Part shown: positions 4,652 to 42,190 of the stretch, in pieces
How positions within the stretch are numbered: position 1 is the first letter of the stretch
Layout: the number at the start of each line of letters is the position of its first letter
From: Phycisphaerales bacterium
GTDB lineage: Bacteria; Planctomycetota; Phycisphaerae; Tepidisphaerales; Tepidisphaeraceae
Direction of reading: 5' to 3'
Length of the DNA: 63,688 bases
Assembly: GCA_020853095.1 (NCBI GenBank)
Contig: JADYZN010000011.1
Coordinates: 1-63,688, forward strand
Made by a program: the position numbers and the translations under genes
Notes under the pieces: generated by a model
The model's database searches: none
Seen by the model: only the letters and a program-made list of their open reading frames with translations
What the model was told of the DNA's origin: nothing

Positions 4652-5406
4652 CCCGTGCCGCCAGTCGACCCATCGCTTCGTCCCATGCCCCTCTGCCGCT
4701 GCCCAGTGGATATCTCAAACGTTCGGAACTGCCGCTCAACAGCCTGTTGTTCGTCCTGCCATTGATCATTCTGTATGAGATTGGAACCCGGCTTTACACC
4801 TTTGACCCGCTTCATCAGACCGAACAACGGATCATCGCCTTTACGTTGATGCAGCGGTTTTTCGCTTTGTTCGGGGCCAGCGGGCGATATCTGCCGGCCT
4901 TGGCCGTCGTCGGGGTTCTGCTCACCTGGCATATCGCCCGCAACGATCCCTGGACCTTTCGCGGCCGGACGGTGCTGATGATGGGCATCGAAAGCATCCT
5001 GATGGGATTTCCCGTCATCCTGCTCAGCTTTCTGACCGCTCATTATCTCCCGCTGTCCACCGGCCGGGCGGGCTGGCAGGGGTTGATCGTATTGTCTTTA
5101 GGGGCAGGAATTTACGAAGAGTTGGTCTTTCGGTTCATCCTGTTCACTTTATTGAGCTTGCTCCTTCTGGACATTTTGAAGCTCCCCAAAATTTTTTCGA
5201 TGATCTCGATCGTTTTGGTCAGTGCGATCCTATTTTCCTTGTACCATTACCTTGGAAATGAGGCCTTTCAGCCCCGCAGTTTCATCTTTCGCACCCTGGC
5301 GGGCGTCTATTTTGGGGTGGTTTTTTTAATTCGTGGATTTGGCATAACTGCTGGATGCCACGCGGCTTATGACGTGATGATCGTGGCCTGGGCAACCCTT
5401 TCCTAA
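4648..5406 (+). CDS. CPBP-family intramembrane glutamic endopeptidase
   Basis: A 252-residue multi-pass membrane protein of the CAAX-protease/bacteriocin-processing (Abi) family. The family motifs are present in order: YEELVFR (EExxxR), a histidine in SLYHYLG, and HAAYD near the end. About six hydrophobic segments can be seen, the first at LPLNSLLFVLPLIILYE. The ATG overlaps the fliM stop (ATGA), which indicates translational coupling. Whether it processes a flagellar or unrelated membrane substrate is unknown. Confidence 0.85.
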   Translation: MTRAASRPIASSHAPLPLPSGYLKRSELPLNSLLFVLPLIILYEIGTRLYTFDPLHQTEQRIIAFTLMQRFFALFGASGRYLPALAVVGVLLTWHIARNDPWTFRGRTVLMMGIESILMGFPVILLSFLTAHYLPLSTGRAGWQGLIVLSLGAGIYEELVFRFILFTLLSLLLLDILKLPKIFSMISIVLVSAILFSLYHYLGNEAFQPRSFIFRTLAGVYFGVVFLIRGFGITAGCHAAYDVMIVAWATLS

Positions 5407-35300: not shown

Positions 35301-35741
35301 TCATCCGATAAATTGTTGTGCCACCGCGACATAGCGCATGCGGGCCTCGTACAATGCCGTGTCGATCAGCCGTTGTTCATCGGCCGACAGGTTCCCTTTG
35401 CATTTTTCCTCCAAAATCACCAGCGTGTCGATCTGGTGCTTGGCCATGTCGAGGTTGAGAACCGGTTCCCCGCTCCGATTCGGCAGATCGCCCAGGTGAA
35501 ATAAAACCTGCATCAAAATCGACTGCACCAATGAGCCAAAGCTCGCCGGCGGGACTTCCCTTTGACTCCGCGAATCCCCGGCCGCCGCTTTTCGTCCGGC
35601 GGGAGGGGCTTTCGCATCGGCCGGCGCCGATGCGGCCGCCTTGGCCGCTTCCTGCTCAGCCAGCTTGCGCTTTTCCTCCTGGGCCTGCTTTTTCCAGTCG
35701 GTGTCGATGTGCAACGAGGGTTGATTGTCTTCTTCTGCCAT
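35301..35741 (-). CDS. DUF1844 protein
   Basis: A 146-residue protein. The N-terminal half is charged and Ala/Lys-rich with a predicted helix (WKKQAQEEKRKLAEQEAAKA). The C-terminal DUF1844 domain begins FGSLVQSILMQVLFHLGDLPN and continues VLNLDMAKHQIDTLVILEEKCKG split over two helices. DUF1844 is common in planctomycetes and deltaproteobacteria; its function is unknown. ATG at 35741 follows GGGGGG and is preferred to the long upstream frame that opposes ribE. Confidence 0.85.
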   Translation of the reverse strand: MAEEDNQPSLHIDTDWKKQAQEEKRKLAEQEAAKAAASAPADAKAPPAGRKAAAGDSRSQREVPPASFGSLVQSILMQVLFHLGDLPNRSGEPVLNLDMAKHQIDTLVILEEKCKGNLSADEQRLIDTALYEARMRYVAVAQQFIG

Positions 35742-35811
35742 GATGCCCCCCATCATACACGCCCTCTTTCTCATTGACATCCCCCCGACCGGCGGCGACA
35801 ACCCATCCATC

Positions 35812-36402
35812 ATGTTTACCGGCATCATTGAAAAAAGAACCACCGTGCTGGGCGCGGCCGACGGGCCGATGTTCCGGCGTCTGACGATCCGCGGCGACTG
35901 GACCGACGTGGCCGCCGGCGAATCGATCGCGGTCAACGGCTGTTGCCTGACCGTGGCCGAAATCCAGCCCGGTCAACTGGGCTTCGACGTGATTCAGGAG
36001 ACGTTGAACAAGACCAATCTCCGGCTGCTGCAAGGCGGCGATGAGATCAACGTCGAGCGTTCTCTGCGCGTGGGGGACCGGATCGACGGCCATTTCGTCC
36101 AGGGACACGTCGATGGAACCGGCCCGCTGGTGGAACTTCTGACCACCGACCGCGAATATCGCCTGCGCATCGCCGCGCCCGATCATCTGGTCAAATATCT
36201 GGCGCCCAAGGGGTCGATCGCCGTCGACGGCGTCTCCCTCACCATCGCCAAGGTGGAGGGAAACGAATTTGAAATCGCGCTGATCCCCACGACCTTGAAC
36301 CTGACCACCCTCGGCGGCCGCCAGCCGGGATGGTTGTTCAATCTCGAAGCCGACATTCTCAGCAAAACCATCGTTCATTATCTGGAACAACAAAGGGGGT
36401 GA
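35812..36402 (+). CDS. ribE: Riboflavin synthase alpha subunit
   Basis: A 196-residue two-barrel enzyme that dismutates 6,7-dimethyl-8-ribityllumazine to riboflavin. It starts with the family signature MFTGIIE. Each half carries the substrate motif: VNGCCLTV in the first, VDGVSLTI in the second, with GHFVQGHVDGTG between. Its start is 70 bases from the divergent DUF1844 start. No other rib gene is adjacent and no FMN riboswitch is seen. Confidence 0.95.
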   Translation: MFTGIIEKRTTVLGAADGPMFRRLTIRGDWTDVAAGESIAVNGCCLTVAEIQPGQLGFDVIQETLNKTNLRLLQGGDEINVERSLRVGDRIDGHFVQGHVDGTGPLVELLTTDREYRLRIAAPDHLVKYLAPKGSIAVDGVSLTIAKVEGNEFEIALIPTTLNLTTLGGRQPGWLFNLEADILSKTIVHYLEQQRG

Positions 36403-36412
36403 ATGCTTCAAT

Positions 36413-38482
36413 TCATCCATTGCCACCGGCTCCGAACTCATCCAGGACCGTTTCGTCAGGATCAGGCTCGACCGGATCAGGCTCGACCGGATCAGGCTCG
36501 TCCATGTTGCACCCTGTTTCCGGAGGCAATTCCGCCGACATTGCGGAAATATGAGATGGATCCAACGGCGACTTGATCCGCAGGGCGTCCATCCGGCAAA
36601 GCACCTGCTGGTGTGAACATTTTAACACCCCTCCAAAATAACAGTTGTAATACTCCGTAATCGTGGCATTTCGTACGATTAATTCCTCATACAGTCGCAA
36701 CAGCCGGTGATCGCCCCTCCCACAAGTTCGTTCCACATCCTCCCACCACTGCCGGACTTCAATGCCAGCGGCCTCCCAGCCGACGCGCAGTTTGGCTTCG
36801 GCGTTGTGTTTCTCGATCATTTTGGGCCGTAACTTTTTGCCGTCCGTGAAAAGATTTTTATCAACCGTCAACCAGTTGGCAGAGGGTTTATCCGCAAGCG
36901 ACTCCAGATTGAAAGCGGGATCGAGCAAGGGCACATTCCGTCGATCATCGCTGGCGGATGAGTCGGTGACACTTTCCAGGATGTCCTGCATTTGCCCGAC
37001 ATCATACACCGGCGTCAGATACGCCTGAAAAGGAGGCGTTCGTCGGTCGCCCAGGAACAATGTTGCCGGCGGTCCGTAGTGCGGATGGCCGGCGGGTGAG
37101 GCAATGTCACTGGGAAGCAACAGCGGTCGGGCGGCCAACGACCAGCTGCGCGCGGTCGGGACGGTGCTACCCTCTTCGCTGCCCACTTCCAGCACGGCCG
37201 GCACTGCGATCGTCGCGGTGCCGCTTTTGACCGAATAGTAGTCGGCGCTTTCCCGGTCGAGGCCCGGCATGACCACATGGGTCTGGAAACCGTCCAGGAT
37301 CGTTTTGGCGGCATTGCCGTAGACGGAAAGCTGGGCCAGCGACTGGATCGCCGCAATGAAACAAAACCCCATCTCGCGGCACAAATGCAGCGCATTGGCC
37401 ATGCCGGGCACTGGCCCCGCGGCAGCGAACTCATCGATGGCGAACAAGACCTTTCTTTCCAGCGACCCGGTCGGCGAGTTGCAGGCCTGACGCTGCAGTG
37501 CGGCCAGCAGTCCCGAAAGCAGCAGCGACGTCACCATGGACAATGGCTCGACATCCTGTGGGTCCAGCTCCAGGATCAATATCCCGCCTTCTGAGGCAAA
37601 CCGGCTCAGCGATACCTCGTGCCCGGAAAGAAAGGCGGCGACCTCGTCAACAAACCTCGTTACACCGCGCAGGACACCGGCGATGGTGGCGGCGTTGTTG
37701 TTCCCGTTTTGATGATAATTCGCAAAAGCCCGCAGCCCGGGGAACGCCGGATGCCGATCGGCGATGCCGCAAAAATCGCCTTCAATCAACAACTTGCGAA
37801 TGGTATACAGCGTCCGCTGCCGGGGAGGCAGGTCGGTGCAAACTGCCAGAATCAGATGTTGTAAATAATCCTGGCCATCCCGTTCCGCCCAATCCGTAGC
37901 CCTCCCCAATGAGGTTGACATTCTCATCAGGCTGGTCGCCAGCGTCGACGCACATGCGGCGTCGGTGCAGCCTTCCAGCGGGTTCCAGCTCATGGAGCGA
38001 TCGGGTTTGCGCGGCGCCAGCAACATCAACTCATCAGCGCGGCCCGCTCGCCGAACGACCTCACGGATAAACCGCGTCTGCCGCACACCCTTGGCGTTGA
38101 TCACCACCAATCCCAGCCCCGACTGAATGGCGTGTACAATGGCAGGCAGGATGCCGCGCATGGTCTTTTCAGAACCGCTGCATCCCACAAACAGGGCGTT
38201 GGGCGATGTCACGCCCATCGGTAATGGCACGGCCGGCATTTCGATCACTCCGACTTTCGGATCGTGATAGATGGCAAAACCATCCAACAGACGGATATAT
38301 CGCTCGGGGTGTGCCTCGACATCCTGGCGCAGTGCCTTCAGGTCCGCCTGGGAAGCCAGTCGACTGCGGCCGTAAGGCCCTTGCGGGGCAAACACCACCC
38401 CTGGCGAGGCGATTTCGTTGTCGGTGTTAAAATGCAGACTTTTCCAATCCCAACCCTGCTCGCTTTTTTTGCTGCTCTTCAT
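36413..38482 (-). CDS. Orphan VirD4/TraG-like coupling ATPase with altered Walker A
   Basis: A 689-residue protein resembling type IV coupling proteins. Walker A reads VGCSGSEKTMRG, where the consensus GxxxxGKT has Glu instead of Gly. The following VVINAKGVRQTRFIREVVRR stands where VirD4 has its DPKGE segment. Walker B is VLFAIDEFAAAGPV, and FCFIAAIQSLAQLSVYG follows as in TraG. No N-terminal membrane helices are seen, unlike classic coupling proteins. The acidic C-terminus has EPDPV repeats. No relaxase, VirB or oriT-like genes are nearby. ATG at 38482 has GAAAGGA upstream. Confidence 0.75.
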   Translation of the reverse strand: MKSSKKSEQGWDWKSLHFNTDNEIASPGVVFAPQGPYGRSRLASQADLKALRQDVEAHPERYIRLLDGFAIYHDPKVGVIEMPAVPLPMGVTSPNALFVGCSGSEKTMRGILPAIVHAIQSGLGLVVINAKGVRQTRFIREVVRRAGRADELMLLAPRKPDRSMSWNPLEGCTDAACASTLATSLMRMSTSLGRATDWAERDGQDYLQHLILAVCTDLPPRQRTLYTIRKLLIEGDFCGIADRHPAFPGLRAFANYHQNGNNNAATIAGVLRGVTRFVDEVAAFLSGHEVSLSRFASEGGILILELDPQDVEPLSMVTSLLLSGLLAALQRQACNSPTGSLERKVLFAIDEFAAAGPVPGMANALHLCREMGFCFIAAIQSLAQLSVYGNAAKTILDGFQTHVVMPGLDRESADYYSVKSGTATIAVPAVLEVGSEEGSTVPTARSWSLAARPLLLPSDIASPAGHPHYGPPATLFLGDRRTPPFQAYLTPVYDVGQMQDILESVTDSSASDDRRNVPLLDPAFNLESLADKPSANWLTVDKNLFTDGKKLRPKMIEKHNAEAKLRVGWEAAGIEVRQWWEDVERTCGRGDHRLLRLYEELIVRNATITEYYNCYFGGVLKCSHQQVLCRMDALRIKSPLDPSHISAMSAELPPETGCNMDEPDPVEPDPVEPDPDETVLDEFGAGGNG
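36459..36503. repeat. Three tandem 15-bp repeats in the coupling-ATPase gene
   Basis: The unit GGATCAGGCTCGACC occurs three times end to end, the last with one change. On the minus strand it encodes repeated EPDPV in the acidic C-terminal tail of the coupling-type ATPase. The in-frame 15-base unit can change copy number without a frameshift. Confidence 0.9.
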
Positions 38483-38701
38483 GGGGTCCTTTCGTTGTGA
38501 TAAATCATTGGTCCGATCACTTCCCCTTCGCCTTAAACGACACAAAGACGCAAATCAGGGGAGGCCGACCGAAGAATACTACACCCCCGTTTTCACTATT
38601 GTTTTGCAAATCCCCTCACCATTGGGTCGCAGGCGTGTCCGTGATAGCATGGTGATGTCACCCGACTTTTTTATTACCATTAACCTTTGAAGAAGCATGT
38701 G
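38483..38701. promoter_or_regulatory. Divergent promoter region
   Basis: 219 bases between the divergent ATPase and phospholipase-D-like genes must hold both promoters. The strip is AT-richer than the neighbours. I do not see a clear consensus pair or a conspicuous repeat. Confidence 0.35.
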
Positions 38702-39595
38702 ATGGAACCGATTCGGGACATGACGATGCAATGGTCAAAGCAGGGCCTGGAAAAATTCCTCAGGGAACTGCAAAACCGGGTCAATGACCCCGACGCCAAG
38801 GGAAGACGACTGTTGGCGGCGCGCCAGGTGCTTGATCGTTTTCAGGTCATCAAATGCGATGGCCACTGGGAACTGGATGTCCTTAACTGGAAAAAAAGCG
38901 GCAAGGATCACGACAGCCAGGCGATTTCCGCCATCAACGATTCACATCTGGACATGGAATTTACGCTACCCGGCGGCCCGAAAATACAAATCGTCCGTCT
39001 GGAGCGGGTTCATCAAAATACTGACGGCCAAAAACACTGGCATCATTTTCTACCCGTGACCCATTCCTCGGACATGCGGGCGACGGTCTGCCCTGCCGAT
39101 GACTATGCGAGACTGATGGAACTGATCAATCAGTTGCCGACAGTGAAACAGGCCGTCCTGATTCAGCACAGCGGCGACTCGGCCAAAAGTATTGTCTCCC
39201 GCCTGCTGAGAAAGGGCGCCGATGTGCAATTGTTTGTCCAGGCTGCCGACTCCGCACAGCCTCCGTTTCACAAAAATCGGCTGGCGTCGCTGTATGAAGA
39301 CATCCCAAATAGATATCTGCACGACGGGGGCAGCCTGCGTGTCTATTACTATCCATCTCCCGCTTCCCTGCGCGCGGTGCTGGTGGACGACCAGGTGCTG
39401 GCCATCGGGTGGTATAACTATTTCAGTAAGGAAAACCGACAGTTTATCCTCTATGGTCACAACCAGCCTTATCTGCATTTAAAAAAAGGGCAGGGAGCGT
39501 TCCAGGCTCTGCGCGACATGATGTTGAATGTGACCCGTTCCATCGAAAAACATGCCCAACCGGCAATCGTGCTTCCCAGAAACCGCATCCGTTGA
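38702..39595 (+). CDS. Degenerate phospholipase-D-like protein
   Basis: A 297-residue soluble protein. The last 160 residues resemble a PLD/Tyr-DNA-phosphodiesterase-like fold: KQAVLIQHSGDSAKSIVSRLL, KGADVQLFVQAADSAQ, then SLRAVLVDDQVLAIGWYNYFSKENRQ. The final stretch aligns by eye with the HxK...D...GSxN motif, but His and Lys appear as Ser and Arg, so catalysis is doubtful. The N-terminal half is unassigned. ATG at 38702 follows GAAGAAG; TTG at 38687 is less likely. Its divergent neighbour is the coupling-type ATPase, suggesting one module. Confidence 0.55.
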   Translation: MEPIRDMTMQWSKQGLEKFLRELQNRVNDPDAKGRRLLAARQVLDRFQVIKCDGHWELDVLNWKKSGKDHDSQAISAINDSHLDMEFTLPGGPKIQIVRLERVHQNTDGQKHWHHFLPVTHSSDMRATVCPADDYARLMELINQLPTVKQAVLIQHSGDSAKSIVSRLLRKGADVQLFVQAADSAQPPFHKNRLASLYEDIPNRYLHDGGSLRVYYYPSPASLRAVLVDDQVLAIGWYNYFSKENRQFILYGHNQPYLHLKKGQGAFQALRDMMLNVTRSIEKHAQPAIVLPRNRIR

Positions 39596-39691
39596 AGTGA
39601 ATCTGACTGCACTGACCGATGGCATCGAATCACCTTGATGGAATAAAAAGATATTTTCCATCGCGGATGCGACAGTTATGCTGTTTGCCGC

Positions 39692-42190
39692 ATGTCCACG
39701 GGCAACCATTCGAGAAAACTGACCGGCATGACCAGACGGCCGTTGGTGGGGGTGGCGGCTTGCCTGATCCTGGGGATCTTCGCTCACGACCACGTCCTGA
39801 TCCAACCCGCACTTTATCTTTCGCTGGCGGGACTCTGCGCCGCCGCGAGCCTGGTGGCGTTGCGGTGGGAACGCATCGGTTCCATCCTGCTGGCGGTGGG
39901 ATTGTTCTTCGCCGGAATCGCCGGCGGGCAGCTTCGGCATTTTTATTTTTCCACCCACGAGATCGGATCGTACACCCGCGCCGAACCCCGGCTGGTTCGG
40001 GTGGTGCTGCGAGTTGATAATCCGCCGCAAATCACGGCCAATTCACAACCATCGCACAACGCCTCAACGCCCAAACAGACGTTTTCCGCCACCGCGCTGT
40101 GGATTTTGCACCGGGATGGATGGTCCGCCTGCGATGGCACGGTGCGCGTGCGACTCAACAAACCCCACCCCCGCCTGACGGCCGGCCAGACGATCCAGGC
40201 CCTTGGATTTCTCTCCTCCCCCCTGCCACCCGCCAACCCCGGCCAATACGACTGGGCAACCCATTACCGCCTTCAACGCGCCCTGGCCACCCTTTCCGTG
40301 GCCGAGGTGGACAACGTGCAAATCCTCTCCGATGGCCGATTTTCAATCCTGCGATGGTTGCGGCAACTTGTGCGAAGCGCCCTGTCGAAAGGGTTTTCAG
40401 CCGACCGATCTCTGGATCACGCGCTGTTGCGGGTGCTGGTCCTGGGGGATGGCGATCCGGAATTGCGCGACATTCAGGATGATTTTCTCCGCACCGGAAC
40501 CAGCCATCATCTGAGCATCAGCGGCATGCACGTCGCGGTGCTGGGTGGATTTGTCTTTCTGCTCTGCCGGCTCCTCTTTTTCCCACCCGGCCGCAGCGCG
40601 TGGATCGGGATGGGATTTGTCATCCTATACGGCCTGGTGACGATCCCTTCACCTCCGGTGGTCCGGTCGGTGCTGCTTTGCCTGGCATTCGGGATCGGCG
40701 TCGTCGCCGGAAGAAGGCTCGATTCCATCCAACTATTGGCCGCCAGCATCCTGATCATGCTCATCTGGCAACCGATGGACCTTTTCAACGCCGGGTTTCA
40801 ACTCAGCTTCGGCACCGTTCTGGGATTGATGATCTTCACCACTCCCCTCACGGGCTGGATGGCCCGCAAACACCTGCTGGAGGAGATCGCCGCCCCGCTA
40901 CAACCTCCCCGCACGCCCGCGGAACAACTGATCCAAACCGCCCGGCATCATCTTCGCGCCGCCCTGTCGGCCGGGTTGGTCGCCTGGGCCGTCTCCCTCC
41001 CGTTGATCGCATGGCATTTTCGCCAATTAAACCCATGGGCCATCGCCGCCAGCATCCTTCTGGCCCTTCCCGTCTTCGCCGCCATGGTGGGCGGTTTGCT
41101 CAAAATCGTGCTGACGATGATGTTGCCCGGCATGGCCGGCCTCTGGGCGGCGATCGCCGCCGGCCCGGTGTTCCTGATGCGCCAGATGGTTCATCTCTTG
41201 TCCCAACTTCCCGGCAGCGACGTCGTCCTGCCGACGATCCCGATCTGGCTGATCCTCCTCTATTACATCCTGATCCTGTTGCCATTGCTGGTGCGCGACA
41301 TCCAACCCCTGAAGAAAATCAAAAGATGGTCCCCCATCGCCGCCCTGTTGCTGATCCTGATCCTGCCCCTCAGTGGCCTGTCATCCCCCCATCCGCCCGG
41401 CAAACATCTTCGGATGACCCTGCTGTCGGTCGGCGCGGGCCAATGTGCGGTGCTGGAGCTTCCCGGCGGCAAAGTCATCCTGATCGATGCCGGCTCCAGT
41501 TCCATCGCCGATCTGTATCGCGACTGCCTCGACCCTTTTCTTCGCCATCGCCGGATCGGCCGAATCGACCAGGTCTTCATCAGCCATGCCAACGGCGATC
41601 ATTTCAGCGCCGTCGAGGATTTATGCCAACGCCGCGCGGTCGGCGAGGTTCTCATGACGACACAATTTCGCCGCCAATCCCACGGCAACGGCCCGGCCGA
41701 ATCCATGTTGCAATCTTTGTGGCAAAATCGCATCTCAACGGGCATGGTGCGCGCCGGCGATCAAATCCAACTCGAACCGGATGTCACACTCGAATCGTTC
41801 TGGCCGCCGGATGATCCCACATTGGATGAAAACGAATCGTCCATGGTTCTTCAGCTCCATTACGCCGGCAAAACCATCCTCTTCACCGGCGACATCCAAT
41901 CCGCCGCCCAGCAACAACTGCTGCTTAATCCCCTGCCGCTGGCCAGCGACCTGCTCATCGCCCCCCACCACGGCAGCGCCGAACCCACCACCGTCGATTT
42001 GCTGTCCGCCATCCACCCCCTGGCCATCCTCAGTTCCAACGACCACACCCTCACCCGCAAACAACGCCGATTCGACCAGCTCGCCAACCCCATCCCCCTC
42101 TATCGCACCAACGACCGGGGCGCGATCACCGTCACGATCCTCGACACAGGCGAATTACGGATCGAATCATTTCTCAACCCCCAACCCTGA
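39692..42190 (+). CDS. comEC: ComEC/Rec2 DNA-uptake channel
   Basis: An 832-residue inner-membrane protein for passage of single-stranded DNA in natural transformation. The N-terminal DUF4131/OB-like region (residues about 50-230) precedes the Competence domain with its TSHHLSISGMHVAVLGG signature, then about ten membrane segments. A C-terminal metallo-beta-lactamase-like domain starts near 575 (GAGQCAVLELPGGKVILIDAG in part). Its metal motif reads SHANGDH, with Asn where many relatives have Asp, then FTGDIQ and APHHGS. ATG at 39728 (MTRRPLVG) is an alternative start. Confidence 0.9.
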   Translation: MSTGNHSRKLTGMTRRPLVGVAACLILGIFAHDHVLIQPALYLSLAGLCAAASLVALRWERIGSILLAVGLFFAGIAGGQLRHFYFSTHEIGSYTRAEPRLVRVVLRVDNPPQITANSQPSHNASTPKQTFSATALWILHRDGWSACDGTVRVRLNKPHPRLTAGQTIQALGFLSSPLPPANPGQYDWATHYRLQRALATLSVAEVDNVQILSDGRFSILRWLRQLVRSALSKGFSADRSLDHALLRVLVLGDGDPELRDIQDDFLRTGTSHHLSISGMHVAVLGGFVFLLCRLLFFPPGRSAWIGMGFVILYGLVTIPSPPVVRSVLLCLAFGIGVVAGRRLDSIQLLAASILIMLIWQPMDLFNAGFQLSFGTVLGLMIFTTPLTGWMARKHLLEEIAAPLQPPRTPAEQLIQTARHHLRAALSAGLVAWAVSLPLIAWHFRQLNPWAIAASILLALPVFAAMVGGLLKIVLTMMLPGMAGLWAAIAAGPVFLMRQMVHLLSQLPGSDVVLPTIPIWLILLYYILILLPLLVRDIQPLKKIKRWSPIAALLLILILPLSGLSSPHPPGKHLRMTLLSVGAGQCAVLELPGGKVILIDAGSSSIADLYRDCLDPFLRHRRIGRIDQVFISHANGDHFSAVEDLCQRRAVGEVLMTTQFRRQSHGNGPAESMLQSLWQNRISTGMVRAGDQIQLEPDVTLESFWPPDDPTLDENESSMVLQLHYAGKTILFTGDIQSAAQQQLLLNPLPLASDLLIAPHHGSAEPTTVDLLSAIHPLAILSSNDHTLTRKQRRFDQLANPIPLYRTNDRGAITVTILDTGELRIESFLNPQP

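Follow-up and report, generated by a model that had tools for sequence, protein, structure and literature searches.

The closest described relatives of the ATPase studied here are the coupling proteins of the TrwB/VirD4 type (T4CPs), which combine a nucleotide-binding core and an all-alpha domain region with an N-terminal membrane anchor and are encoded next to relaxase and channel genes. T4CPs that have no membrane domain can still transfer their cognate plasmids, and mutation of Walker A abolishes conjugation by coupling proteins (reviewed in PMC7434980). HerA/FtsK-type DNA translocases, including the SIR2-HerA and HerA-DUF4297 defence complexes, belong to the same ATPase superfamily. The CD1115 family of VirD4-like conjugal transfer proteins (NF045973) supplies the best NCBIfam match, and the phospholipase D (PLD) superfamily, with members such as PLD3, NucT, TrmBL2 and polyphosphate kinase, is the nearest reference for the gene next to the ATPase gene.

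The locus lies in a stretch of 63,688 nucleotides of a Phycisphaerales genome (77 contigs, 96% completeness), which is probably a metagenome assembly; the term window denotes this whole stretch. The pair and its surroundings comprise the following features:

35725-36402, plus strand: riboflavin synthase, left flank (ORF with an MFTGIIE N-terminus, identified by sequence)
36413-38482, minus strand: anchorless VirD4/TrwB-type coupling-protein-like ATPase, 689 aa (Pfam, PDB profile search, predicted structure)
38702-39595, plus strand: PLD-like gene, an orphan of 297 aa with a degenerate HKD-like motif and without detectable homologue
39692-42190, plus strand: ComEC/Rec2-type DNA uptake protein, right flank (PF03772, E 6e-47)
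36393-39675, strand not applicable: apparent lineage-specific insertion of about 3.3 kb that holds both genes (alignment with the same-genus genome G009)

Both ORFs were confirmed as real, divergent genes, separated by a gap of 219 bp: their codon-position GC is of the coding type and every other frame contains 5 to 22 stops. The ATPase most likely starts at the ATG at 38482, behind an AAGGA ribosome-binding site, and not at the upstream TTG, and the start of the PLD-like protein is most likely the ATG at 38702 (297 aa) rather than the TTG at 38687. The ten genes neighbouring the pair include no relaxase and no secretion gene, as an earlier note on this DNA had observed, and are housekeeping genes. 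On balance, we favour the view that the ATPase is an anchorless T4CP-like motor which was stranded by a mobile element and is probably inactive here, and that the PLD-like gene is separate cargo.

The VirD4/TraG features that the earlier note had recognised in the ATPase were borne out by three Pfam models, all above cut-off: PF10412 (TrwB_AAD_bind, E 3e-19), PF12696 (TraG-D_C, E 1e-17) and PF02534 (T4SS-DNA_transf, E 2e-15). A profile built from five relatives matched TrwB in the PDB at 7e-14. The predicted model of the ATPase is mostly confident at residues 110-390. Of the structural comparison that had been proposed for the pair, the part run on the ATPase placed TrwB at the top (Z 26.3, rmsd 3.3, 329 residues aligned), followed by DotL (Z 23.5), Cag-beta (21.2), DndH (18.3) and VirB4 (17.1), with HerA at Z 15.4 and lower. 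Because the Pfam and PDB profile matches agree and TrwB leads the structural ranking, the core of the ATPase is, as judged from the predicted model, a complete VirD4/TrwB coupling-protein core; both the T4CP nucleotide-binding domain and the all-alpha domain are present according to Pfam and the structural match to TrwB. Compared with HerA/FtsK-type translocases, the core is clearly nearer to TrwB and there is no nuclease or SIR2 partner nearby. NF045973 aligns with residues 94-461 at E 5e-33 and about 23% identity, but its score of 114.7 bits is far below the family cut-off of 250 and the ATPase is not a member of this family, which also supplies its nearest plasmid matches. The phage and plasmid matches are generic VirD4-like proteins of 21-26% identity.

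In contrast to TrwB/VirD4-type proteins, the ATPase carries no N-terminal anchor, has no adjacent relaxase or channel genes, contains a glutamate in its Walker A motif and ends in a different C-terminal domain. Ahead of Walker A, the hydropathy of 19-residue segments does not exceed 1.03, in agreement with the missing membrane anchor reported previously, and no hydrophobic segment precedes Walker A in either the window ATPase or four relatives. A scan of genome contigs with profile A1 brought up nothing closer than distant VirD4 proteins, for the most part of the Firmicutes type (19-29% identity), and viral contigs scanned with A2 and A3 contained no relative of the ATPase.

Within the order of the window genome, the ATPase was found in two of 26 genomes, the window's own included. 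A profile search of the 397 genomes of the class, which scored two candidates per genome and thus gives minimum counts, detected at least five members of the group, namely the window protein and one each in G012, G276, G688 and G691. When 25 coupling-protein-like sequences were placed in a maximum-likelihood tree, these five fell on one side of a branch with support 91/92, and the window ATPase paired with the G691 protein (support 100/99). From these sequences, the ATPase appears to be a member of a sparse and patchy group of anchorless coupling-protein-like ATPases, a group of which literature searches returned no description. No conjugation genes were seen near the relatives in G012, G276 and G691 in ORF lists, a minority of whose ORFs were compared with Pfam. 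The G688 copy lies in an element (L130:5189-18664) that encodes AbiEi/AbiEii, an HTH protein, the anchorless coupling-protein-like ATPase, ParA and an ArdC-type protein; ParA, ArdC and AbiE surroundings of this kind are typical of mobile elements.

Another genome of the class, G566, contains a candidate mobilisation cassette (L132:5745-10546). It encodes a TrwC-type relaxase that includes a helicase domain, a small membrane protein, and a coupling protein of 537 aa in which no anchor is evident. The TrwC gene precedes that of the coupling protein, which shows that relaxases of this class do occur together with short coupling proteins. One may ask whether the ATPase is itself a functional mobilisation remnant. 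It would then act as coupling protein for a mobilisable element which relies on the secretion channel of another element, in the manner of CloDF13-type plasmids. The G566 arrangement and the position of one relative beside ParA and ArdC speak for this possibility, as do described mobilisable plasmids with a coupling protein of their own (PMC7434980). However, the G566 protein falls outside the five-member group in the tree, no relaxase is present among the neighbouring genes, and a search of the window genome for the relaxase family PF03432 found none. Together with the glutamate in Walker A, these findings make a working mobilisation protein unlikely. A genome-wide search for PF03135 likewise found no VirB4, and the genome has no TraG-D_C match besides the ATPase gene; both results fit the stranded, probably inactive motor, to which we return.

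The nucleotide-binding motifs of the ATPase are located as follows:

38162-38185, minus strand: Walker A, GCSGSEKT (translation, codon comparison with four relatives)
37430-37450, minus strand: Walker B region, VLFAIDE, with the Asp-Glu pair intact (alignment A2)

The acidic residues of Walker B are present (AIDEF, residues 348-352). Walker A is not intact: the last glycine of the P-loop is replaced by glutamate, as the earlier note had read it, encoded by GAA at 38168-38170. The four closest relatives carry GRSGSGKT, GGAGAGKT, GATGSGKT and GAMGSGKT, that is, an intact motif with glycine at this position in each case. The glutamate, the conservation of which had been raised as a question, thus occurs in one of the five members only, and an adaptation of the whole family was rejected. 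In P-loop enzymes a glutamate side chain at this position should disturb phosphate binding, and the window ATPase is probably unable to hydrolyse ATP. Against such a loss stands its reading frame, which is fully open across 689 codons and suggests that the protein was under selection until recently. In the G012 relative (L072:11666-13948) Walker A is intact and the Walker B aspartate is changed to cysteine, apparently an independent sign of decay in a second member of the group and at another site.

Alternatively, the glutamate could be an assembly or sequencing error that conceals an intact motor, in which case the protein would not stand out from the rest of the anchorless group. GAA is a single base away from a glycine codon (GGA, GGC or GGG in the four relatives), and the fragmentation of the assembly described above would be compatible with an error. 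The remainder of the frame is undamaged, however, and at normal coverage a lone substitution is seldom an error; we regard this explanation as very unlikely and take the replacement as probably a genuine feature of a motor that is probably inactive.

The second gene of the pair offers less to compare. Its product contains one degenerate motif:

39365-39418, plus strand: SLRAVLVDDQVLAIGWYN (sequence and pattern scan)

In the 297-aa form, residues 222-239 read S.R....D......G..N (SLRAVLVD...GWYN) in place of H.K....D......GS.N, which bears out the earlier description of a PLD-like motif with Ser and Arg for His and Lys. The pattern, which was picked after sight of the motif, was found in 76 of 100,000 composition shuffles. 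The canonical H.K....D (HxKxxxxD) is absent, only S.R....D being present, and there is no second HKD motif. None of the HMM or family libraries searched gave the protein a name, and no relatives were found in genome contigs, plasmids, viral contigs or the searched genomes. A search of 392 genomes of the phylum, taken to be Planctomycetota, gave a single further match below E 0.001, in G080 (5e-4), which was rejected as an unrelated, glycosidase-like ORF by eye.

The single-sequence model of the PLD-like protein (pLDDT 46) is too weak for a fold call. In a Foldseek search with this low-confidence model, entries of the PLD superfamily ranked high, at E 0.004 and weaker; the top matches include polyphosphate kinase, TrmBL2, PLD3, PLD2, NucT, Zucchini and MITD1, all of which we take to be members of the superfamily. 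VIA-align gave generic alpha/beta matches of the GTPase or flavoprotein type, none above Z 6.0, and its best 50 rows contained no PLD entry; a structure search of the viral library returned nothing significant. The protein resembles the PLD superfamily in the predicted order of strands and helices and in the G..N behind the aspartate, but differs from it by the Ser and Arg substitutions, by the presence of a single motif and by the lack of a sequence match to any PLD model. A PLD fold is therefore suggested by the model but not proven, and since His and Lys are absent we treat the protein as putatively non-catalytic.

Do the two genes form a system? The earlier note had considered a linked defence or transfer module and had named co-occurrence beforehand as the test of the pair. 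The PLD-like gene is missing from all four genomes with an ATPase relative (G012, G276, G688 and G691) and from another 20 genomes of the order to which the window belongs. The pair thus does not recur where the ATPase has a relative, and a conserved gene pair was rejected. PADLOC-DB 2023 had no model that matches the ATPase or the PLD-like protein, and a linked module is thus unsupported; a defence role of the pair has no support. A two-gene module for defence or DNA handling outside conjugation, in which an ATPase ring would bind or move DNA with the PLD-like protein as a DNA-binding or regulatory partner, could be proposed from the divergent arrangement across 219 bp and from the shared insertion. 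Genuine defence systems also exist in which a HerA-type ring is paired with an effector protein, and such rings appear lower in the structure list. Nevertheless, such a module is quite unlikely in view of the non-recurrence, the missing PADLOC match, the housekeeping neighbours, a core that resembles TrwB (Z 26) more than HerA (Z at most 15), and the alteration of catalytic residues in both proteins. Most likely, the two genes are cargo of a mobile element and do not constitute a conserved system.

The flanking genes are consistent with this assignment. In G009, the sole same-genus genome searched, the matches to riboflavin synthase (89% identical) and comEC (77% identical) are 61 bp apart and the pair is absent. 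Since the flanking genes are adjacent there, the pair is best read as a lineage-specific insertion, for which, as opposed to a loss in G009, the patchy distribution argues. A functional tie of the pair to comEC was rejected on the grounds that riboflavin synthase and comEC are neighbours in G009, which lacks the pair. No integrase, transposase or target duplication was found at the insertion, repeat scans gave no convincing terminal repeats, there is no convincing tRNA, and the insert has no room for any recombinase gene. The mobile origin that we infer for the pair therefore derives from presence and absence and from the context of one relative. Two suggestions of the earlier note, that the genes are adapted away from conjugation and that they may be a mobile-element relic, fit the insertion, the patchy relatives, the one relative on a parA/ardC/abiE element and the lack of VirB4 and a PF03432 relaxase in the genome.

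According to this reading, a mobile element would have brought in the ATPase and left it stranded between riboflavin synthase and comEC. The intact relatives would assemble into a ring of subunits like TrwB/VirD4, in which ATP hydrolysis pumps or hands over DNA or nucleoprotein, and their C-terminal helical domain would be the likely docking site for a substrate or partner. In the window copy, the motor is probably dead, a decaying relic, or may serve only as a scaffold, because glutamate replaces the last P-loop glycine and the genome searches yielded neither VirB4 nor a relaxase of family PF03432. The PLD-like gene would be independent cargo that codes for a non-catalytic orphan protein, not a conserved partner. 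Considered alone, the window genome would thus hold ordinary stranded mobile-element genes, and it cautions against reading divergent neighbours as a system.

The C-terminal part of the ATPase leads beyond this genome. Two features were recognised:

36569-36865, minus strand: C-terminal helical domain, aa 540-638 (HMM from four ClpX-like proteins, 1e-12)
36453-36503, minus strand: three 15-bp tandem repeats (repeat scan) that encode an acidic EPDPV C-terminal tail of the ATPase, EPDPVEPDPVEPDPDE

The domain of about 100 residues, with the pattern WW ... LRL.EEL.VR.ATITE, has no model in Pfam. When four ClpX-like proteins from other genomes of the phylum were made into an HMM, it matched the ATPases of G276 (3e-52), the window (1e-12), G688 (2e-9) and G012 (4e-6), compared with 0.41 for the best of 2000 shuffled sequences; the G691 relative gave no match. 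Four of the five anchorless coupling-protein-like ATPases thus have this domain in common with ClpX-like AAA+ proteins, the motor of which is an AAA_2/ClpX-type domain and not a coupling-protein core. The ClpX-like carriers are encoded at L075:8934-10754, L077:1312-3084, L078:5551-7188 and L082:9217-9903. A contig of the viral collection, IMGVR_UViG_3300044610_000678, opens with a ClpX-like protein bearing the same domain (L141:1-1524), and an ORF at 5016 behind this gene looks portal-like by eye only.

Coupling proteins often dock substrates through C-terminal domains, and for this reason our guess, by analogy, is that the domain could be a docking site for a substrate or partner. That two unrelated kinds of ring motor carry this domain is the most interesting side result and the most original part of this analysis. 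We consider it doubtful, if conceivable, that the anchorless ATPases of the phylum constitute a distinct, non-conjugative family of motors that handle DNA or nucleoprotein in the cytosol, recruited through a docking domain common to them and to ClpX-like unfoldases, so that two unrelated ring motors would serve one and the same partner. If the group does have a real cytosolic function, coupling-protein motors would have been reused outside secretion, and the domain held in common with ClpX-like proteins would, through its binding target, provide a direct handle on that function.
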